This document shows positions 7,524-17,828 of a stretch of 64,000 bases of DNA, in pieces. Where the stretch lies: positions 5,394,001 to 5,458,000 of the forward strand of contig NZ_CP049143.1 of the NCBI RefSeq assembly GCF_011044495.1, read 5' to 3'. A model generated the notes under the pieces. That model did not search any database, was not told where the DNA came from, and was given only the letters and a program-made list of their open reading frames with translations. Source of the stretch: Roseimicrobium sp. ORNL1. GTDB taxonomy: Bacteria; Verrucomicrobiota; Verrucomicrobiia; Verrucomicrobiales; Verrucomicrobiaceae. The translations under genes and the position numbers were made by a program. Position 1 is the first letter of the stretch; every line of letters starts with the position of its first letter.

Positions 7524-8981
7524 ATGACACGCCGATTTCTCCTTCCTGTGTTACTTGCTGTGTGCGGGTGCTGCTTGATGCTGACTTCCCTTCACGCAGC
7601 GGAGGCACTGCGCGCGGGCGCCTACGCGCAGGACATTTCTCCGACCAAGTTCCCCATCCCGGTAAACGGCAGCATGAAGGGCGCCTTTGCCCAGGGGATC
7701 ACCGACCCGATGCACGCACGTTGCGTGGCCATCCACGATGGGACGACAGAGATCATCCTGTGCGTGGTGGATGCGTGCATGATCCCGCAGGACATCTGCG
7801 ACAAGGCGAAGGAAATCGCAGCCAAGAAGACCGGTGTGCCCGCAAACCACATGATGATCTCCGCCACGCACACGCACTCTGCCGCCGCCCTCGGCCCGGC
7901 ATTCCAGAGCGATCCCGACATGGAGTATGTGGCCACCGTGCCGGCGCGCATCGCCGAAGGATTGATCAAAGCCCATGAGAACCTGGAACCCGCGGAGATC
8001 GCCTGGGGATTCGGCAGTGATCCTTCGCAGGTCTTCAACCGCCGGTGGCGCGTGAAGGAACAGGAGCAGTATGAGAACCCCTTCTCCATCACCACGGACC
8101 GCGCGTGGATGAACCCCGGCGCGCAGAATCCCAAGGTCTCCGTCCCCGCCGGCCCGGTGGATCCCGATGTGGGCATCCTCGCCGTGCGCTCGGCCGCAGA
8201 CAAGCGTCCCATTGCCGTGCTCGCGAACTACAGCCTGCACTACGTCGGCGGGAATCCCGCCATCTCTGCGGACTACTACGCCGCCTTTGCGAATGAGATG
8301 GCGGAGCGACTCAAGGCCACCGATGCGCGCTATCAGGGCAAGCCGGCCTTTGTCGGCATCATGTCGAACGGCACCAGCGGCGACATCAACAACATCAACT
8401 TCGCCTCCCCCATTCGCCTGAAACGCGAACCGGGTGAACAGATCAAGATCGTGGCCCGCAGTGTGGCCGATGCCGCCATGACTGCCTACGATACCATGAA
8501 GTGGTCACCCACCACAAAACTGGCGGCGGAAGAAACCGTCCTGCAGCTCGGTGTGCGCAAGGCGGATGCTGCTGGCTTGGCCCAGGCAAAACAAACGCTC
8601 GAGGCCACCCCCAAGGACAAGGACGGCCAGTGGGCCGACCGCAAGGCCATCTATGCCCGTGAGACCGTGAAGCTCGCCGATTATCCGGACAAGGTGCCCG
8701 TGAAGCTCCAGGCCTATCGCATCGGCGACCTCAGCATTGCCACCCTCCCGTGTGAGACCTTTGTGGAAATCGGCCTCGACCTGAAGAAGAGCACCCCCTT
8801 CACCCGCCACTTCACCGTCTCCCTCGCGAATGGCTACAACGGCTACCTTCCCACTCCCGAGCAGCACAAACTCGGCGGCTACGAAACCTGGCGCGCCCGC
8901 AGCGCCTACCTGGAAGTAGAGGCCTCTACGAAGATCGCGGAGAAGCTGAAGGGGATGCTGGCGAAGTTGAAGGGGAAGTGA
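7524..8981 (+). CDS. Secreted neutral/alkaline ceramidase-like protein
   Basis: A 485-residue exported protein. A signal peptide occupies about 1-25 (hydrophobic LLPVLLAVCGCCLML, then SLHAA). The mature part begins LRAGAYAQDISP, typical of the neutral/alkaline non-lysosomal ceramidase superfamily that verrucomicrobia and planctomycetes carry in many copies. Metal-binding residues are visible in SATHTHSAAA (His116, His118). It is shorter than true ceramidases (about 650-700) and appears to lack their C-terminal immunoglobulin-like domain. Hydrolysis of an N-acyl or amide bond in the periplasm is therefore likely, but the substrate is unknown. The start at 7524 places the signal peptide correctly; upstream in-frame codons would only extend it. 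Confidence 0.82.
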   Translation: MTRRFLLPVLLAVCGCCLMLTSLHAAEALRAGAYAQDISPTKFPIPVNGSMKGAFAQGITDPMHARCVAIHDGTTEIILCVVDACMIPQDICDKAKEIAAKKTGVPANHMMISATHTHSAAALGPAFQSDPDMEYVATVPARIAEGLIKAHENLEPAEIAWGFGSDPSQVFNRRWRVKEQEQYENPFSITTDRAWMNPGAQNPKVSVPAGPVDPDVGILAVRSAADKRPIAVLANYSLHYVGGNPAISADYYAAFANEMAERLKATDARYQGKPAFVGIMSNGTSGDINNINFASPIRLKREPGEQIKIVARSVADAAMTAYDTMKWSPTTKLAAEETVLQLGVRKADAAGLAQAKQTLEATPKDKDGQWADRKAIYARETVKLADYPDKVPVKLQAYRIGDLSIATLPCETFVEIGLDLKKSTPFTRHFTVSLANGYNGYLPTPEQHKLGGYETWRARSAYLEVEASTKIAEKLKGMLAKLKGK

Positions 8982-9020
8982 GTGGGCATCGCAGCGCTGC
9001 GTGAGGTAGTGAGAGCGGGG

Positions 9021-9317
9021 AACCACTAATAGGCACTAACGAACACTAATTCTGAGGAAGGTTGATGGGATTGGGGGTCCGCTAATTGACGCTAACAAAC
9101 GCTAATGTTGGGAACGAAGTGGTTGGTGCGGTGGTAGCTTGCTCCTGCCTCTTGCTGACCAGCCGCCCAGCCGCCCAGGCGCCCAGGCGCCCAGGCGCCC
9201 ATCGCCAATGCGCACTGCCAGGCCTTGGAGCTACTGAACCATTAGCGAACATCAGCGTCCATTAGCGGTCCCTTTTAGTATCTTACAATTAGTGTTCGTT
9301 AGTGCCTATTAGTGGTT
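9021..9317. repeat. Nested palindromes built from 10-bp CRCTAAY units
   Basis: The outer arms at 9021-9050 and 9288-9317 are near-perfect inverted copies over about 30 bp. Each holds three CACTAAT-type heptamers spaced exactly 10 bp apart (units at 9024, 9034, 9044; and reversed at 9288, 9298, 9308). The inner arms at 9077-9107 and 9240-9270 have the same layout with CGCTAAT-type heptamers. This region fills the gap between the ceramidase-like gene and the thioesterase gene and holds no credible ORF. It matches the repeat that flanks the insertion sequence near 10.7-11.8 kb. Confidence 0.85.
9161..9200. repeat. Tandem 8-bp GC-rich repeat, five copies
   Basis: Five consecutive octamers: two of AGCCGCCC and three of AGGCGCCC. 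They lie in the centre of the nested palindrome described above. The array could vary in copy number by slippage. No coding role is visible. Confidence 0.8.
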
Positions 9318-9399
9318 TCCGAAGCTCACCATCGCCCCCAACGGACCAGCATCCCCACTTGCCTGCGGCGAACCACTTTCCATGGTGCTTCACCTCATC

Positions 9400-9894
9400 A
9401 TGTCCACCGATCCTCAGCACCTGTGCCGATCCACCGAGGAGTATCTTCACGCCCAGATTCCCATCACCCGCGCGATGGGTGTGGGCATCGAGTCGTATGA
9501 GCCGACGACAGGCCACCTTGTTCTCACCGCACCGTTGCAGGTCAATCACAACCACCTTGGCACCGCCTTCGGTGGAAGCCTGAGTGCGCTGTGCACACTC
9601 GCCGGCTATGCGCTGCTGTGGCTGGAGCTAGCAAGGCAGAGCAATGATGACATAGACGGGTCTCCGGCCACTCAAGCACACGTCGTGGTGAAAGAGAGCA
9701 CCATTTCCTACCGACGCCCCGTGAAGGACTCCTTGATTCGCGTGGTGTGTGAACGTCCTGACACCGACGTCATGAGCACGTTCCACCATCAGTTCTCCCA
9801 GAAGGGGAAGGCACGCGTCGTTCTCTCGTGCAGCGTCATTGAGAGCGGGCAGATCAGTGTCGTGTTCACAGGCACCTACGTCGCCATTCGGTAG
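9400..9894 (+). CDS. YiiD C-terminal-type thioesterase domain protein
   Basis: A 164-residue protein of the hotdog fold, most like the putative thioesterase domain found at the C-terminus of YiiD. The family features seen are an N-terminal helix (CRSTEEYLHAQIPITRAMGV) and the central loop and helix NHNHLGTAFGGSLSALCTLAGY. The conserved LGTAFGGSL forms the substrate-binding helix of the hotdog fold. The usual acyltransferase half of YiiD is absent. The substrate, presumably an acyl-CoA or acyl-ACP, is unknown. An in-frame ATG at 9382 would add six residues; neither start has a clear ribosome-binding site. Confidence 0.78.
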   Translation: MSTDPQHLCRSTEEYLHAQIPITRAMGVGIESYEPTTGHLVLTAPLQVNHNHLGTAFGGSLSALCTLAGYALLWLELARQSNDDIDGSPATQAHVVVKESTISYRRPVKDSLIRVVCERPDTDVMSTFHHQFSQKGKARVVLSCSVIESGQISVVFTGTYVAIR

Positions 9895-10016
9895 GCGGCA
9901 CCTGCATTGCGCCTTTCTTTGAAGCGCCGTCGTACCTTCCAGCAAGCTCCAGGCGATTGGCCTGATTCATGCGGCAGGACCTGCACTCTGGAGCAAAACT
10001 CCCACTCCCCTCTCCC

Positions 10017-10655
10017 ATGCAGATCCTCTCCGTGAACATCGCCATGCCCCGAGTGATCGAAATCAACGGCAAGGCAGTGCCCACGGGCATCTACAAGGAG
10101 CCGGTGACCGGTCCGGTAGAGGTTCGCAAACTCGGGCTCTCAGGTGATGGACAGGCGGACCTGACCGTCCACGGTGGTGAGCATCAGGCCGTGTACGCCT
10201 ACCCCATCGAGCACTACGCGCACTGGGCAACGTTTCTCGGTGCCGCTTCATTGGAGCACGGCACCTTCGGTGAGAACCTCACCACCAGCGGTCTCATCGA
10301 GACAGAAGTCTGCATCGGCGATGTCCATCGCATGAGCAACGTCCTGCTCCAGGTTACCTGTGAGCGCCTGCCTTGCTTCAAGTTCGCACACAAGGTCAGC
10401 CGTCCCGACATCTTGAAACCCTTCTTGCAGAGCGGCCACAGCGGATTCTACTACAAAGTCCTTCAGGAAGGCACCATCACCGCGGGCGATTCCATCGAAG
10501 TGGTGGAGAAGGAGCCCCAGTGCATCAGCGTACGTGCTCTACTCGGCGTCCACCGTCTCAATGAAGACGACATCGAGACGATGGAAAAGCTGCTCAAGGT
10601 GGAAGCCCTCGCTCCCGGCGTGCGGAAGGATATCGAGAAGCGCCTTGCCCATTGA
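10017..10655 (+). CDS. MOSC domain-containing protein, YiiM-like
   Basis: A 212-residue protein with the MOSC fold over almost its whole length, followed by a C-terminal helical segment of about 50 residues as in E. coli YiiM. Characteristic stretches are GLSGDGQADLTVHGGEHQAV and the conserved Cys in CERLPCFKF, which in this superfamily is placed to bind molybdenum cofactor. YiiM reduces N-hydroxylated base analogues such as 6-N-hydroxylaminopurine, so a detoxification role is likely by family. The start at 10017 (MQILSVNIAMP) matches the usual family N-terminus; a longer in-frame start at 9969 is less likely. Confidence 0.88.
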   Translation: MQILSVNIAMPRVIEINGKAVPTGIYKEPVTGPVEVRKLGLSGDGQADLTVHGGEHQAVYAYPIEHYAHWATFLGAASLEHGTFGENLTTSGLIETEVCIGDVHRMSNVLLQVTCERLPCFKFAHKVSRPDILKPFLQSGHSGFYYKVLQEGTITAGDSIEVVEKEPQCISVRALLGVHRLNEDDIETMEKLLKVEALAPGVRKDIEKRLAH

Positions 10656-10674
10656 CGCGGCCCTCTCGACCAAA

Positions 10675-10747
10675 TGGACCGCTAATCGGCGCTAACAATC
10701 GCTGATAGTACAAGCATCTGTCCGTGCTGTGGCTGCTCGAAACATTA
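10675..10747. repeat. Left part of palindromic CRCTAAY element split by the IS
   Basis: GGACCGCTAATCGGCGCTAAC and CGCTGAT give three heptamers in a 10-bp period (10680, 10690, 10700). They are followed by the spacer and the first four bases of the opposite arm (ATTA at 10744-10747). The rest of that arm lies beyond the insertion sequence at 11758. Confidence 0.8.
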
Positions 10748-10760
10748 GAGCATTTTCTAT

Positions 10761-11327
10761 TTAATTTGTCGCATAATTGGCATGGCGGAAGAAATTGGCG
10801 CAGTGTTCTGGTGAGAACATGTCCAGAGCTTGCGCGACGGCGGCTTCCAAGCCCTCAAAGGTGCGCTGTGCTGCATGGCGCACATGTGCTTTGAGTTTGG
10901 CAAAAGCCATTTCAATGGGATTGAGGTCGGGGCTGTACGCAGGCAGGTAAATCAAGCGTGCGCCTCGTGCTTCGATCGCCTGTGCCACGCCGCTGACCTT
11001 GTGACTGGCAAGATTGTCGCAGATGACAATGTCACCGGGTGTGAGTTGCGGAGCCAAGAACTGTTCGATGTAGGCTAGGAATGCAGACCCGTTCATGGGT
11101 CCATCCAGCACACACGGAGCACAAAGGCGATCCTGACGCAGCGCCACCACCAAAGTCGCCGTGTGCCAATGTCCAAAGGGCACCGCACAACGGCAGCGCT
11201 GCCCACTGGCCGAACGTCCATACAACCGGCTCATTTTGGTATTGAGTCCCGTCTCGTCCAAGAAGACCAAGTGGCGGCCTTCCCATTGGCTTTGCTGCTC
11301 ACGCCAGAGCTGGCGAGCCGCTTGCAA
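10761..11327 (-). CDS. IS630 transposase, DDE catalytic part (second frame)
   Basis: This frame encodes the DDE_3 catalytic domain. HLVFLDETGLN holds the first Asp, GDIVICDNLASHK the second Asp, and LPAYSPDLNPIEMAFAKLK the final Glu. It has no ATG of its own near the start; the open frame extends upstream to an A8 run at about 11361-11368. It should be expressed as a fusion with the preceding frame. Going from the first frame to this one requires a +1 (or -2) shift, or loss of one A by transcriptional slippage. Confidence 0.9.
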   Translation of the reverse strand: MQAARQLWREQQSQWEGRHLVFLDETGLNTKMSRLYGRSASGQRCRCAVPFGHWHTATLVVALRQDRLCAPCVLDGPMNGSAFLAYIEQFLAPQLTPGDIVICDNLASHKVSGVAQAIEARGARLIYLPAYSPDLNPIEMAFAKLKAHVRHAAQRTFEGLEAAVAQALDMFSPEHCANFFRHANYATN

Positions 11328-11328
11328 G

Positions 11329-11703
11329 TCAGGCCGCTCTTGCTCGGCGGCGTGCAGCGTTTTTTTTATAGCTCAAGCCCAGCTTCTCCAGCCGATGCCA
11401 CAGGGCGGTGGTGCCGATGTTGATGTCCAACTGCTTGTTCAAACGCTCGCTCATCTCCTCCAGGCTCAAATCAGGTTGCTGGGAGATCCATTGATGCAAC
11501 AGCTCATCATGTCCTTCCAGGCGGGAGCGGCGGTAACCACCTCGTTGCTTGGGTTCCACCGTGCCCTCCTCCAAGTGACGCTTCCAGAAGCGTTCGACGC
11601 TGCGTTTGGAAACCCCAAAGAGTCGCGCGAGTTCCTCGGCGCTTTGTCCCCGTCGCCGACCGGCCACCAGTCGCTTACGCAGATCCATGCTGAAGCTCTT
11701 CAT
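11329..11703 (-). CDS. IS630 transposase, helix-turn-helix part (first frame)
   Basis: A 124-residue product with the N-terminal DNA-binding half of an IS630 transposase: MDLRKRLVAGRRRGQSAEEL, then FGVSKRSVERFWKRH as the recognition helix region, and a second helical domain (LSLEEMSERLNKQ). The last shared residues before the frame change are LGLSYKKN, encoded across TAT followed by eight A. After the A run this frame only reads an Arg/Ala tail and stops, while the catalytic domain continues in another frame. Confidence 0.88.
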   Translation of the reverse strand: MKSFSMDLRKRLVAGRRRGQSAEELARLFGVSKRSVERFWKRHLEEGTVEPKQRGGYRRSRLEGHDELLHQWISQQPDLSLEEMSERLNKQLDINIGTTALWHRLEKLGLSYKKNAARRRARAA

Positions 11704-11757
11704 GAGCTACTCTAGCATCATCCTCAGTTTGCGACAAATTAAACAGAAAACGCTCTA

Positions 11758-11786
11758 GCGAAAATTAGCGTCCATTAGCGGTCCAT
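11758..11786. repeat. Right arm of the palindromic CRCTAAY element
   Basis: GCG (completing the ATTAGCG unit begun left of the IS), AAA, ATTAGCG, TCC, ATTAGCG, GTCCAT. Removing the IS and one TA restores three units with a perfect 10-bp period. The result mirrors the left arm at 10675-10706 and matches the inner arm at 9240-9270. Confidence 0.8.
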
Positions 11787-11793
11787 AAAATTA

Positions 11794-12453
11794 TCAAGGT
11801 TGCTTCCAAAGGAGAGAGCAATTGTGACTCAGCGCCTCGTAGGCCACGCCACCAGAAAACCCGGGCAGGTCTTCGCGATGATGCTTGCAGTAGAGCAGAT
11901 AGTTGCCGGACTTGCCGATGACGAACTTGGCCTTGCCATCCTTGTCCGTCGTGATTTCCTCTTCCTTGCCTTCCGGTGGCACTACGAAAACCTTCGTGTC
12001 AGCCATGGGTTTACCACGGAAGAACACCTGCACCTCGCCGGGGGTCGCCGTGGGCACGATGTCGAACATCATGGCGGGCTTGGCCTCACCCGCGCCGGCG
12101 TGGTGCCAACGCGCGTAGAAGTTCGGCTTGCGAGCCGGAGCATCACCACGCTTCATCACGGGAAAGCCGGTCTCTGCCATGGCGCCTTTGGCCGTGGTAG
12201 CGCCTTCCAGCAGGAAGTGGTCTGCCTTCTTCTGCACCTCGAAGGGTGCTGGCTTGCCATCTTCTCCCGTGGTCCAGGCCTGCGGTGTGATCAGGGAATC
12301 AAGGTGACCCGGTGACTTCTCATACTCCTCACCGTATTCGGCAAAGCGGACTACGAGCTTGCCATCCAGTTCTTCAATCCAGACTTCATGCGCGGAAACA
12401 GTGGAAGCAAGGCATAGCAAAACGGATAGTATGGCGAACAAACGTGACAACAT
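11794..12453 (-). CDS. DUF4198 domain-containing exported protein
   Basis: A 219-residue protein with a signal peptide (about 1-21, ending VSA before HEVWIEE). The mature N-terminus HEVW is typical of DUF4198, a periplasmic beta-sandwich family related to NikM/CbiK-type metal uptake substrate-binding proteins. A distal segment (MADTKVFVVPPEGKEEEITT) resembles a carboxypeptidase-regulatory or Ig-like strand pattern, and HHRED with a C-terminal Cys lies near the end. A role in divalent metal or cofactor handling is inferred only. It lies 66 bases downstream of the Kelch gene on the same strand, probably in one transcript. Confidence 0.78.
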   Translation of the reverse strand: MLSRLFAILSVLLCLASTVSAHEVWIEELDGKLVVRFAEYGEEYEKSPGHLDSLITPQAWTTGEDGKPAPFEVQKKADHFLLEGATTAKGAMAETGFPVMKRGDAPARKPNFYARWHHAGAGEAKPAMMFDIVPTATPGEVQVFFRGKPMADTKVFVVPPEGKEEEITTDKDGKAKFVIGKSGNYLLYCKHHREDLPGFSGGVAYEALSHNCSLLWKQP

Positions 12454-13637: not shown

Positions 13638-16600
13638 TCAGGCAGATACCACGGTACGCATCAGAACCCGATCCTCTGACAATGGATTCGCATGAGAACG
13701 GCGTCGACGGAGCACCATAATGATCCCAGCACCCAGCAGCAACACCATTCTCGTGGGTTCGGGCACCGATGCATACTTCACATAGAGGCTGTTCCCCTCT
13801 TGGGCGATGGAGAATTTGCCGCCGGCTTCCTCCCCGGTGAATCCGCTGTAATCAAAGGTGAAGACATCCATGTCGAAGCCTTCAATGCCCTCGCTCGCCG
13901 TGAGAATCTGCCAGCTGTAGTCCTCATATGGATCGAAGTCCGCAATCGCTCCCGCGAGGAGGCTCGTATTGAGTGACTTCAGGCTTAAAATGAATTGGTC
14001 TTCCTCGGTCGCGGTGATCGTGAGGGTGCCGTTGATGTCGACCAAGTCCCAGCCAATACCTGGACCGGAATCCACATCGGAGATTTCCCACTGGTACTGG
14101 CCTCCACCGGTCCACGTCTGGCTCAGAGTGGAGAGTGTGCCCGGACTATTGCCCGGAGCGAGCACATTGAGTTGACCAACCCCTCCACCGACGGTGAGGG
14201 CCTGATTCAACGTACCACCGCCAACGAGCGTGCCACCGTTGAACTCAACGTTTCCACTCAGGCTCGACGAATTCAGGTGCAGCGTGCCGCCCTTGTTCAA
14301 GACGATGTTGTTGGCAAGGGATACACCACTGTTCACACGAAGCGTGGCGCCGCTCTGAATCGTGGCGACCCCGGTGCCGAGTGCATTGTTCGCCGCAGCG
14401 ACAAATGTTCCTGCGCCGATGTTCGTTCCTCCGGTGTAAGTGCTGCTACCTTTCACTTCGAGAGCGCCCGCTCCCACCTTGTAGAGCTGGTAGTTGCCGT
14501 CGACTCCACCCACGGAGGTGGTGATGCCACCATTCACGATGACCATACCCTCTCTGGCGAGGGTCACCCGCCCCGTGCCGAAGTCCAGATTGTGCGCTCC
14601 CGCGAAGGTGACGTTTCCATTCCAAACCTGATTATTGTTGTTGGCGAGCGTGATGTGCGCACCGGAGCTGTTGTGGACCTCCACACCGTTGCCCAAATAG
14701 AGCGTGCCCGTCCCCAATGCCTGGGCATGATTCACTGCAAGCGAACCCTGGTTCATATAGGTCCCTCCCGAGTGTGAATTCGCCCCGGTAAGGTACAAGA
14801 ATCCCGCACCGCTCTTGACCAACGTCACGGCTCCAGTGCCATTGTCCAAAATGGAGGCCCCGATGTAGGCACCGGAGGCGCTGGAATACACTGCGAGTTC
14901 AGCAGGTGTGTTGATGGCGCTGCCTGCCGTGATCGTGCCGTTGTTGATGTAGCTCCGGCGGGTGCTGTTACCACCGCTGAAGATGATGCCGCCAGCAGCA
15001 ACCCTCAATTGTTGACCGGCAAGGTCCAGCAGGTTCTGCGTATTGGTACCTGCAGTGGGACCCACCATGGCGAGGGCGTTGACAGTGCGGCCAGCCGTGA
15101 GCGTGTTGGTGACCCCCGCGGCGCCTCCGGTGATCTTCACCGTATTTGCCGCGGTCCAGGTGCTCTCTCCTGTAGTCGTATACGCGGTGAATGCGGTGAC
15201 TCCAGTGGTGCCGTTGTAGGTGGCAAATTCATTGCCCACAGTCGCCCATCCACCAATGATGCCATTCTGGAGCGTCGGCGCGGTGCCCAGCATGATACTG
15301 TTCCGGGTGCCCAGCGTCGCGGCGGTGAAGTTCACGGTGGAGCCCACCGATCTTTCGAGTTCCACGATGTTGAGGACATTGGTGAACCCTGCGGCCACCT
15401 GGGTGGTCGTCACGGTCGTGGCGCCCTTTTCAAGATCCAGTTTTCCAATGGTTTCGCTAAAGTTGGCGCTGCCGGTATTGCTGACATTGATGATACCACC
15501 GGTCGATACGATGGTCGCCGAGTCTTCAACGCGATCTCCGGAATTGGCGGCGGCGGTGTTGGTCAACTGGAAGGTTCCACCTCCCGCAACCGTCACATCA
15601 CCGTCAATCGATCCAGTAGCGCCAGCCACGGCAAACGTCCCGGCTTCGACTGAAGTGCCACCGGTGTAGGTGTTTGCATTGGTTACTTCCAAGGTACCGT
15701 CTCCCTGCTTACGCAAAGCGCCAGATCCACTGACCACGCCTGTGAGACGACCATCCACAGCAGCAGAGCCATTAAGCGTCTGCACCACGCGATCTTCGCT
15801 GCCCAGGTTGATGGCGTTCGCGAACTCCACCGTGTTGTTGGCATAGCCATGGGAAAGGACCAGAGCGTCTCCATCCGCCACGAAGCTGCCTGCGCCCCAA
15901 GTGACCTGGGCACCGGCTCCTCCGAGGTTCACGGTGCGAACAGCGCCGTAGGCGGCGAAACCGCTGCTGCTTTTGAACTCAACCTGCCCGGCGCCAGTGC
16001 CAAGACTCCAGGTGAAGTTCCCAGCACCGAGTCCCAGAACTCCTCCATCGAGCACCAGATGGCTGGCGGTGGACAAGGCCGTGGTGGAGTCGAGCCGCAG
16101 CATGCCTGCTTCAATCACCGTATCCCCCACATACGTTCCGGTGCCGCCGATTGCCTGCACACCGCCACCGGTCTTAACGAGGGAAATGTTATTCTCGTTC
16201 GTCCCGGCCCCACCGATATTGCCCCAGTATTCAACGGGAGCCCCACTGGCAACGTTGGTCGTCAGTGTTGAGATTTCAGCACTGCCACCCACGATGGATG
16301 CATTGGATGCGGTACCCGTGGACGAAGTTCCTGTGGCTTCATCAAAGATGGTCATCTGGGCAGCCATGATGCCCGTAAAGGTCTGATCCGATTTCCCGGA
16401 GGCATCTCCCAGCACCAGCTTGGCATTTTCCTCCCCAACGAAGGTGGCACCGTCCACCACACGCCTGCTGTACAGTTGGACCGTGAAGTTTGAACTCAGA
16501 CGGTCGTCGCCACCATGCAGCGTCACGGTGGTGTTCTTCATGTTCAGCTCGAGCGCGCCTGCTCCCGTGTAGACATTCTCCCCGCTGATGAAATTCTCTC

Positions 16601-17828
16601 CACCGGTGATGATGAGCCTGTTGAAGGAATTCCCGGTGAAGGTGTTGTTGCCTTCAAGGCGCAAAGTGCCTTCCCCCTTCTTGTAGAAGCCAGGACCCGT
16701 GATGCTTCCGGCCATGGTGAGCGTCGTATCCTCCGCGATATTGATGAGATTGAACTCACTGATCTGCACGGGCGCGCTGACGGTGTAGTTCACCACATTG
16801 CCACCGCCGTCAGCCGTGATGCCGCCTGCTCCGACAGTGAGTGTGGAAGATCCGTTGCTGGAGAGTGTGAAATTCCCGGTAGTTTGAATGGCGAGGGACT
16901 CAACCGTCTGGTCCACGTCGAGCACCGCGGCCGTGCCTTGGGCGAACAGCACCTCACGGCCATTGGCTGGCTGTGTATTGCCACTCCAGTTGGCCGCAGT
17001 GCTCCACAGGTTGTTGCCACCACCCGCATCCCACTCAGCAGCCTGCGGGAAGATGTTCGTCGCATGCAATACATTGCTGGTGTCCAGCTGCATCGCATAC
17101 GCCTGGGCATGCTGCACACCGGTGAACTGGACCTCATAGGAGAGAATGGGATCGGTGACTCCATCGAGATTAAACTGGACACCCCAGGTGTTGCGATAAA
17201 TGTCTTCATACCCGGTTGGCATGAGAATATCTCCCGTATAGATCTGGGAGATGCGGTCGGAATAGGTGGCGGTCATCTCGAACGTTCCCAGCGAGGTCGT
17301 GTAGACCAGTTTCGGGAGCACGTCGTTGAAGAGGTCATACCCACTCGCCTCCCCAATATCCAACTGGAACGCGATGGTCTTCACGCCTGCCAGCGGAGTG
17401 GTATCCACCACCCCCAAGGTTCCACCATTGATATTGGGGTCACCGGAGAAACCGCCGAAGTAAATGGAGCCACCTGCGGGATAAGGTCCGCCACCGGCGC
17501 CATTGGATACCTTGTAGAGGAGCGCATCCCCAGAGCCTGCCGTATTCGAGCCAATGGCACCCACGTTCCCTGAGCCCGGATTGTAGGCAGTCCAGTTCCC
17601 ACCTGTGGTCGGCCACGCTCCCGACCCGGGGAAGCTCACGCCGGTGTATCCACCTGCTGCCGAGAGATTGATCCATCCATCATAAGTAGTGGTCCCGAGA
17701 AGACTGAGCGAAACGGGCGAGGCCTGGAGCACGGAGGAAAAGGCAAACATGAAGATAATGCTGGCTTGGAGCACCAGCCTTATCAGACGAGATGGAGGGG
17801 CTGTAGGTCGTTGTGTCGTTGTGTTCAT
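13638..17828 (-). CDS. Giant PEP-CTERM protein with autotransporter-associated beta-strand repeats
   Basis: A 1396-residue exported protein. A signal peptide lies at about 12-36 (VLQASIIFMFAFSSVL). The body is Gly/Thr/Asn-rich beta-helix with several passenger-associated repeats of the type NTYTGGTSVEAGTF (near residues 390, 765, 1075 and 1175). Near the C-terminus is a PEP-CTERM sorting signal: VPEPTRM, a hydrophobic helix, then RRRR. Unusually, about 18 more residues follow the arginines. Family knowledge says such signals are cut by exosortase and the protein reaches the surface or matrix. It is the last gene of a three-gene operon, 27 bases after the preceding PEP-CTERM gene. Confidence 0.9.
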   Translation of the reverse strand: MNTTTQRPTAPPSRLIRLVLQASIIFMFAFSSVLQASPVSLSLLGTTTYDGWINLSAAGGYTGVSFPGSGAWPTTGGNWTAYNPGSGNVGAIGSNTAGSGDALLYKVSNGAGGGPYPAGGSIYFGGFSGDPNINGGTLGVVDTTPLAGVKTIAFQLDIGEASGYDLFNDVLPKLVYTTSLGTFEMTATYSDRISQIYTGDILMPTGYEDIYRNTWGVQFNLDGVTDPILSYEVQFTGVQHAQAYAMQLDTSNVLHATNIFPQAAEWDAGGGNNLWSTAANWSGNTQPANGREVLFAQGTAAVLDVDQTVESLAIQTTGNFTLSSNGSSTLTVGAGGITADGGGNVVNYTVSAPVQISEFNLINIAEDTTLTMAGSITGPGFYKKGEGTLRLEGNNTFTGNSFNRLIITGGENFISGENVYTGAGALELNMKNTTVTLHGGDDRLSSNFTVQLYSRRVVDGATFVGEENAKLVLGDASGKSDQTFTGIMAAQMTIFDEATGTSSTGTASNASIVGGSAEISTLTTNVASGAPVEYWGNIGGAGTNENNISLVKTGGGVQAIGGTGTYVGDTVIEAGMLRLDSTTALSTASHLVLDGGVLGLGAGNFTWSLGTGAGQVEFKSSSGFAAYGAVRTVNLGGAGAQVTWGAGSFVADGDALVLSHGYANNTVEFANAINLGSEDRVVQTLNGSAAVDGRLTGVVSGSGALRKQGDGTLEVTNANTYTGGTSVEAGTFAVAGATGSIDGDVTVAGGGTFQLTNTAAANSGDRVEDSATIVSTGGIINVSNTGSANFSETIGKLDLEKGATTVTTTQVAAGFTNVLNIVELERSVGSTVNFTAATLGTRNSIMLGTAPTLQNGIIGGWATVGNEFATYNGTTGVTAFTAYTTTGESTWTAANTVKITGGAAGVTNTLTAGRTVNALAMVGPTAGTNTQNLLDLAGQQLRVAAGGIIFSGGNSTRRSYINNGTITAGSAINTPAELAVYSSASGAYIGASILDNGTGAVTLVKSGAGFLYLTGANSHSGGTYMNQGSLAVNHAQALGTGTLYLGNGVEVHNSSGAHITLANNNNQVWNGNVTFAGAHNLDFGTGRVTLAREGMVIVNGGITTSVGGVDGNYQLYKVGAGALEVKGSSTYTGGTNIGAGTFVAAANNALGTGVATIQSGATLRVNSGVSLANNIVLNKGGTLHLNSSSLSGNVEFNGGTLVGGGTLNQALTVGGGVGQLNVLAPGNSPGTLSTLSQTWTGGGQYQWEISDVDSGPGIGWDLVDINGTLTITATEEDQFILSLKSLNTSLLAGAIADFDPYEDYSWQILTASEGIEGFDMDVFTFDYSGFTGEEAGGKFSIAQEGNSLYVKYASVPEPTRMVLLLGAGIIMVLRRRRSHANPLSEDRVLMRTVVSA

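Follow-up and report, generated by a model that had tools for sequence, protein, structure and literature searches.

Nested palindromes of phased heptamers in Roseimicrobium sp. ORNL1 as probable gene-less derivatives of elements encoding GxxExxY proteins

The described systems closest in style to the palindromes analyzed here are the REPIN-RAYT systems and the TIRtrons, although enzyme class and repeat design are different in our case. The enzyme gene of REPIN/REP-RAYT systems (REPtrons) is flanked by the same repeats and the repeat type matches the enzyme type; these repeats, like ours, are dispersed intergenic inverted doublets with variable loops (PMC3116915, PMC3733652, PMC8266576). RAYTs are HUH enzymes, whereas the candidate enzyme here is a predicted PD-(D/E)XK nuclease, and the arms of their repeats are small stem-loops, whereas ours consist of three direct 7-bp words and lack a GTAG tag. 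TIRtrons are RAYT-like genes in long TIRs, and families of these TIRs have been described; they also share with our elements a small nuclease gene between inverted repeats and dispersed gene-less repeats, but differ in enzyme class, while the repeat design may be shared (PMC3733652). Insertion sequences with MITEs are similar in having complete gene-bearing copies, shorter ends-only copies and two sister types; here, however, no transposase has so far been linked to the arms, a duplication of the target site was not found in the flanks of 26 pairs and the loops are mostly non-homologous. Cas4, lambda exonuclease and RecB-type nucleases resemble the GxxExxY protein introduced below in predicted fold and in the ExK...QxxxY residues, but the latter is a single small domain. 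In 23S rRNA intervening sequences with S23 genes, a small gene is located between inverted arms. The protein family is a different one, the S23 step is mostly ~7 bp, and the palindromes described here lie between genes. One paper names the GxxExxY domain together with a reverse transcriptase and a cas4 gene. No description of arm-GxxExxY-arm elements was found in the open-access literature searched, and we call them undescribed in that sense; nor did this literature describe such an element under phased heptamers at ends, PVC palindromes, inverted repeats of S23, IVS or Avd, or Cas4-like proteins with palindromes.

The window, i.e., the whole stretch of 64,000 nucleotides of Roseimicrobium sp. 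ORNL1 that was analyzed, contains two nested inverted pairs of arms at positions 9024-9314, each arm being composed of three heptamers at 10-bp steps. The heptamer type is CACTAAY in the outer and CGCTRAY in the inner pair. A second palindrome of the same family lies at 10677-11783. The features are:

9021-9050, plus strand: outer left arm, foot AAC and CACTAAT-AGG-CACTAAC-GAA-CACTAAT (units 9024-9050)
9077-9106, plus strand: inner left arm, foot GTC and CGCTAAT-TGA-CGCTAAC-AAA-CGCTAAT (units 9080-9106)
9107-9240, strandless: inner loop, 134 nt between the inner arms, with 0 listed ORFs of at least 60 aa
9241-9270, minus strand: inner right arm, foot GAC and CGCTAAT-GGA-CGCTGAT-GTT-CGCTAAT (units 9241-9267)
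9288-9317, minus strand: outer right arm, foot AAC and CACTAAT-AGG-CACTAAC-GAA-CACTAAT (units 9288-9314)
10677-10706, plus strand: left arm of the second palindrome, CGC type, CGCTAAT-CGG-CGCTAAC-AAT-CGCTGAT
10746-11758, minus strand: IS630-family IS with DDE_3 and HTH_Tnp_IS630
11756-11783, minus strand: right arm of the second palindrome, innermost heptamer split by IS630 at TA (as judged by eye)

A preliminary description of this DNA had reported nested palindromes of phased heptamers, and these are real, with all four arms where it had placed them and steps of exactly 10 bp. Its consensus CRCTAAY holds for 11 of the 12 units; the remaining one, CGCTGAT in the inner right arm, is a small deviation. 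With the foot (AAC/GTT) included, the outer pair occupies exactly 9021-9317. Phased CRCTAAY-N3-CRCTAAY pairs occur eight times in the window and in none of 200 dinucleotide shuffles. The GxxExxY gene is absent from the nested palindrome according to the inner loop and the ORF list; since this loop is too short and holds no such ORF, the nested palindrome can be at most a gene-less derivative. Comparing the 134-nt inner loop with those of the other, non-nested palindromes yielded no match. It includes an 8-bp tandem repeat (CCAGGCGC, 5.4 copies, window 9159-9201). In the congener G001 (76-83% nucleotide identity), only a relic is left at the corresponding site.

The IS630-family IS in the second palindrome is a later insertion that does not belong to the palindrome family. 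Two copies with 100% and two with 86% identity are present elsewhere in the genome. We rejected it as parent of the palindromes, as it has its own ends and sits within one arm. Opposite window 10680-11780, G001 has neither the second palindrome nor IS630. A different repeat is present at this place (L155); it belongs to the CGGTGAGCGGT kind, reads CGGTGAGCGGTGAGCGGTGC-like on the minus strand and is of the same kind as the flanks of the S23 genes L065 and L067 (see below).

The excess of phased copies anticipated in the preliminary description extends to the entire genome (7.96 Mb): 106 phased pairs were counted, each three-unit arm giving two pairs, against 1 with the pattern read backward. 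When CACTAA..CACTAA was searched in the genome with a free gap of 0-24, 59 of the 62 matches had a period of 10 or 11 (reversed control, 27 matches in all). In 21 stretches chosen around arms (20 plus the window; 626,838 strand-bases), the distances of up to 60 between neighboring CRCTAAY words were 10 (106 times), 11 (13 times), 20 (seven times) and nine others, and in an even 400-kb sample they were 10 (13 times), 11 (once) and 55 (once). The stretches hold 74 arms, 68 with three, five with two and one with eight units. These arms were picked at no more than one mismatch per unit, so that the conservation of the words, though not of the foot, is partly a matter of selection. An inspection of the list by eye revealed CAC and CGC units mixed within one arm only once (third unit at 5844818), and CACTAAT outside and CGCTAAT inside, as proposed earlier, were borne out as diverged sister types. 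The spacers between the heptamers are variable among the 74 arms. The foot, which was not used for picking arms, is tied by its first letter to the type (A in 23/23 CAC arms, G in 32/32 CGC arms): among arms of 10,10 spacing, it is AAC in all 23 of the CAC type and GAC in 31 of the 32 of the CGC type, the exception being GTC of the inner left arm in the window, and RACC is found in 54/55.

A crude gene call based on codon usage places 73 of the 74 arms between genes, compared to a coding share of 77% in the even sample, which agrees with the expectation that the copies lie between genes. That they are paired as palindromes is mostly correct: the arms form 26 same-type inverted pairs, and 22 arms are unpaired. 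The loops range from 18 to 1057 nt, the longest being the one with IS630, and are mostly unrelated, with matches in 8 of 325 comparisons, four of which are trivial nested pairs and four lie inside the 5.74-5.76 Mb cluster. The 12-nt flanks of the 26 pairs gave no direct-repeat signal indicative of a target-site duplication. Either type can form the outer pair of a nest. In the 5.74-5.80 Mb cluster it is CGC, and the CGC-to-CAC separators there measure ~53-58 nt on each side and look similar to the eye. The nested arms are two-tier ends rather than the result of a simple chance insertion into a sister. Of the earlier alternatives, an element within a sister element or two diverged layers, the two diverged types were supported, whereas simple chance insertion was not, in view of the two orders and the like separators.

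The idea of one motif per helical turn on the same DNA face applies to the own clade, in which 28 of 41 arms have steps of 10,10, but not to the sister clade, in which 27 of 53 arms have steps of 9,9 and 21 of 53 steps of 9,10; because of these 9-bp steps, the same helix face is no general rule. The number of units can shift by 10-bp steps, as seen from an eight-unit CGCTAAT arm at G000:C1:5716421-5716497 (L052) and from two copies of a longer duplicated stretch in genome G243 (L216 and L217), which have three and five units. G243 also contains mini-elements of ~80 bp (L218, L221) with three CGCTAAT on the left and three CGCGAAT on the right, the two ends differing by one letter in all units; one left unit is CGCTAAA in one copy.

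One CGC pair of the ORNL1 genome, at 5837371-5837950, encloses a minus-strand GxxExxY gene (TIGR04256/PF13366; G000:C1:5837404-5837868), and the word of its arms is the inner CGC type of the window palindrome. A search of the genome found four PF13366 genes, whose proteins all score above both curated cut-offs (TIGR04256 and PF13366). Inverted phased arms enclose every one of these genes, and the word is a different one in each case:

L059: GxxExxY locus, own genome, arms CRCAGAG-type
L060: GxxExxY locus, own genome, arms GCAAAGCAGCGAAGC-type
L061: GxxExxY locus, own genome, arms CGCTAAT (the gene named above)
L062: GxxExxY locus, own genome, arms CGCAAA-type

A PF13366 search found no partner gene of the CAC type in this genome; CACTAAT arms flank GxxExxY genes at L171, L172 and L177 of other genomes. 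In the stretches, CGCAAA pairs gave 8 matches (two of them one place in overlapping stretches) and GCAAAGCAGCGAAGC pairs 4 (two of them the L060 arms), with reversed controls of 0 in both cases; for CRCAGAG the control is uninformative, as the word is near-identical backwards (18 matches versus 15).

The association extends beyond this genome. PF13366 is present in 25 of 29 genomes (own plus relatives), and a flank inverted-repeat score of at least 13 was obtained for 24 of the 32 GxxExxY loci inspected in them, L079 and L092 being cut at contig edges and scored as misses, compared to 7 of 1000 positions drawn at random from the own genome. In a broader set from named genomes, consisting of the best 80 loci among the matches listed minus seven edge loci (one with arms), paired triple-word arms were present at 49 of 73 loci versus 1 of 409 control windows displaced by 900-1900 bp at the same loci. 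By the same test they were absent at 24 of the 73, including all three Bacteroidota loci of this set (L294, L303, L307). According to our own assignment of phylum labels, word-bearing loci occur in Verrucomicrobiota, Planctomycetota, Chloroflexota, Pseudomonadota, Desulfobacterota-type groups, Firmicutes, Nitrospira and Chitinispirillaceae. Four of eight records with a match in a plasmid collection were examined; those of Bacteroides (score 21), Bernardetia (16) and Sphingomonas (15) have arms of like style and that of Treponema has an 11-nt inverted repeat only. The length from arm to arm, gene included, is 423 to 773 bp with a median of 472 (45 named loci with inward-facing arms). At three planctomycete loci (L237, L238 and L253), a palindrome is present on each side of the gene instead of a single one enclosing it. 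Another planctomycete GxxExxY locus (L240) adjoins a tandem array of ~105-bp mini-palindromes.

Within the phylum, 226 of 387 genomes have a match to the CGCTAAT-flanked protein. CRCTAAY triple arrays are present in 46 of the 387, patchily within families: they were seen in 15 of the 22 where a close gene is present and in 31 of the 365 others. The E-value cut for a close gene was set after the words had been seen, and the genome lists were transcribed by hand. Genes of the S23/four-helix-bundle family (PF05635) are likewise found between inverted arms of short words, mostly with a step of ~7 bp. An inverted-repeat score of at least 13 was reached by 7 of 8 S23 loci in the own genome (L063-L070) and 21 of 28 in relatives (L099-L126), against 7 of 1000 random own-genome positions.

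The word follows the protein. Among the 30 loci best matching the CGCTAAT-flanked protein, query included, inspection by eye assigned arms with CRCT words to 14 loci, all at ≥48% identity, and arms with CACG words to six, all at ≤49%; no clear arms were seen at the other 10. For 50 named loci with words, word distance and protein distance were correlated (Mantel r 0.63, a value reached in 0 of 2000 permutations), and for the 831 cross-phylum pairs, the subset through which alone host phylogeny was handled, r was 0.66. Of the four variable letters, cross-phylum pairs shared 1.84, 2.60 and 3.55 at 40-50, 50-60 and ≥60% protein identity, respectively. In a tree of 64 rows, which includes near-copies and many unresolved forks, the three states of letter 4 of the word need 2 changes, the least possible, and the four-letter suffix needs 20 compared to 40.2 when shuffled (0 of 200 as low). 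G-words are split from the rest on a branch with an SH-aLRT of 97. The finer letters show less order inside the T-word clade (TAAT, 11 changes versus 14.5 shuffled). The association is strong: the arms go with GxxExxY genes across phyla, and word and protein co-vary. As arms and gene are physically linked, the concordance could in part be due to co-inheritance. This linkage does not account for the likeness of all six words within an element while the spacers drift; the fact that the words shift together between clades as the spacers vary indicates that something reads the word.

The best candidate for the reader is the GxxExxY protein. In 30 diverse rows, G36, E39, Y42, D79, E89, K91, Y107, G116 and N120 are invariant and H100 and Q103 are kept at ≥90%, a set of residues which we take to be that of the PD-(D/E)XK enzymes with the QxxxY motif of RecB, Cas4 and lambda exonuclease. 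The AlphaFold model is confident (pLDDT 92.7). A Foldseek search of the PDB placed Cas4 SSO0001 first (E 1.1e-4, TM ~0.5 or less), followed by lambda exonuclease, and a second structure aligner gave Z 8.6 for Cas4 SSO0001, both similarities being modest. A sequence search of the PDB yielded only weak matches at E 0.6-0.73, namely two endonucleases I of phage type and one Cas4. The protein thus models as a single-domain PD-(D/E)XK nuclease of the Cas4/lambda exonuclease kind. A Holliday-junction resolvase was not adopted as the main interpretation, as such enzymes gave weak matches only among those listed by the PDB sequence and fold searches.

Arm-gene-arm units that relatives lack at the syntenic site were found in two species. 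In Bacteroides finegoldii, an arm-gene-arm unit of 472 bp lies between radA and a gene for a FAD-protein; in Parabacteroides distasonis these two genes are 13 bp apart without a unit, and in Phocaeicola massiliensis a different gene, of 215 aa, lies between them. In Sphingomonas parapaucimobilis, a unit of 437 bp (L335 1480-1908) is located between fabD and fabG, with the GxxExxY gene ending or starting within 2 bp of fabG; no unit is present at this site in S. paeninsulae and Rhizobium indigoferae. These syntenic differences, seen at a divergence too high for target duplications to be delimited, can be read as gain or as loss. Copies within genome G225 show what is shared around an arm: L226, L227 and L229 have the arm and ~110-120 nt on its inner side in common, and beyond the foot ~20 purine-rich nt are still common to L227 and L229 but not to L226. 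Longer common flanks were seen for the L223 pair and for L224/L230. Owing to these shared flanks beyond the foot, the outer end is not sharply fixed by the G225 copies.

We favor, with a probability of roughly two in three, the reading that the nested palindrome derives from a GxxExxY element as a non-autonomous, REPIN-like form devoid of the gene, and that its words may be read by the cognate nuclease. A complete element consists of arm, GxxExxY gene and arm, of which a gene-less derivative would keep the arms; each arm comprises a short foot (RAC here) and three 7-bp words at 9-11-bp steps, giving six words per element. The GxxExxY protein itself presumably binds the word, each nuclease reading its own, and the three sites of an arm could load several subunits side by side. 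A 10-bp step would suit neighboring subunits on one face, but the 9-bp step of the sister clade shows that strict phase is not needed throughout the family. Inverted arms could bring the ends together, as paired double-stranded ends, as a cruciform or as a single-stranded hairpin, and cleavage at the joined ends might lead to copying or capture into new intergenic sites with the help of host repair enzymes. In this scheme, movement would be driven by the GxxExxY nuclease, and gene-less palindromes would be served in trans, those of the CGC type by the gene at G000:C1:5837404-5837868. No mechanism is known to us that would let a lone PD-(D/E)XK nuclease integrate DNA. The preliminary description had expected a cooperative DNA-binding protein or a transposase; the design of the arms does suit a dedicated protein, for which GxxExxY is the best candidate, but no classical transposase has so far been linked to them.

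A rather unlikely alternative is that an unlinked factor, such as a host recombinase or the enzyme of another element, moves the arms and that GxxExxY and S23 are passengers or maintenance genes, in which case the concordance of word and protein would reflect linkage, which makes arms and gene travel together. The occurrence of two unrelated families (PF13366, PF05635) in arms of like style also fits an outside factor with both genes as passengers, and of the 46 genomes of the phylum that carry CRCTAAY arrays, 31 have no close gene; this count includes many incomplete assemblies and covers close GxxExxY genes only. However, passengers would not account for six like words that change together between clades while spacers vary or for the invariant catalytic residues, and the step, mostly ~7 bp in S23 and 9-10 bp in GxxExxY arms, looks as if set by each protein family. 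Still less probable is a role as long RNA hairpins for termination or mRNA end protection under RNA-level selection. The predicted fold is strong (z -10.6), but any inverted repeat would give such a fold, and the direct repeats inside an arm are not needed for a stem. The distance between an arm and the closest called gene is often 10-30 bp, and there is a mild enrichment of convergent gaps (11/36 versus 33/191, p 0.07); a consensus scan of 8900-9500, however, detected no terminator-like site (GC stem plus T-run). A described RNA family was dismissed, as there was no Rfam match in 8900-11900 up to E 1. Word variants do not co-vary between arms (0.89 versus 0.88 shuffled), G243 even pairing CGCTAAT on the left with CGCGAAT on the right, and the left-right spacer match is slightly above that of shuffled partners (0.58 versus 0.47; 33 of 2000 as high). 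Stem pairing is thus not the chief conserved feature, and strict pairing as the feature maintained was rejected on account of the words.

We consider it very improbable that the arms are host chromosome-organizing sites bound by a nucleoid or segregation protein. Phased clusters of words, dense in the 5.7-5.85 Mb region, would suit such a function, but it is at odds with the restriction of the arrays to 46 of 387 genomes and their patchiness within families, with words that vary with the GxxExxY clade, also between phyla, and with units present or absent at syntenic sites. At the bottom of our scale stands the possibility that the palindromes are REPs or REPINs moved by RAYT (Y1/HUH) transposases. 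They do share the layout of dispersed, intergenic inverted doublets with variable loops, and the genome has 17 PF01797 matches; yet none of these 17 loci has CRCTAAY pairs within 1.5 kb on each side, several own different inverted repeats, and the foot is RACC rather than GTAG. The RAYT-type genes L316-L320 and L332 have their own long inverted repeats unrelated to the heptamers (L318: CCCAGGG...CCCTGGGT).

A wider reading, which we put forward tentatively and at somewhat under even odds, is that GxxExxY proteins may be the word-specific nucleases of undescribed minimal mobile elements, with gene-less palindromes multiplied in trans, a co-evolving code of word and protein and a parallel class of S23 elements with mostly ~7-bp steps. 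The reading of the nested palindrome as a derivative of a GxxExxY element gives GxxExxY (TIGR04256), annotated as a family without function, a specific candidate DNA partner and a testable activity, and it would account for many dispersed palindromes in Verrucomicrobiota and other phyla. If it is true, a Cas4-like PD-(D/E)XK enzyme joins the owners of dispersed palindromic repeats, which are best known for HUH RAYTs. The natural pairs of protein clade and word (T versus G at letter 4) are a ready specificity series. Elsewhere in the window, on the minus strand at 13638-17828, an ORF of 1396 aa gives the impression of a repeat-rich surface protein with a PEP-CTERM-like tail.
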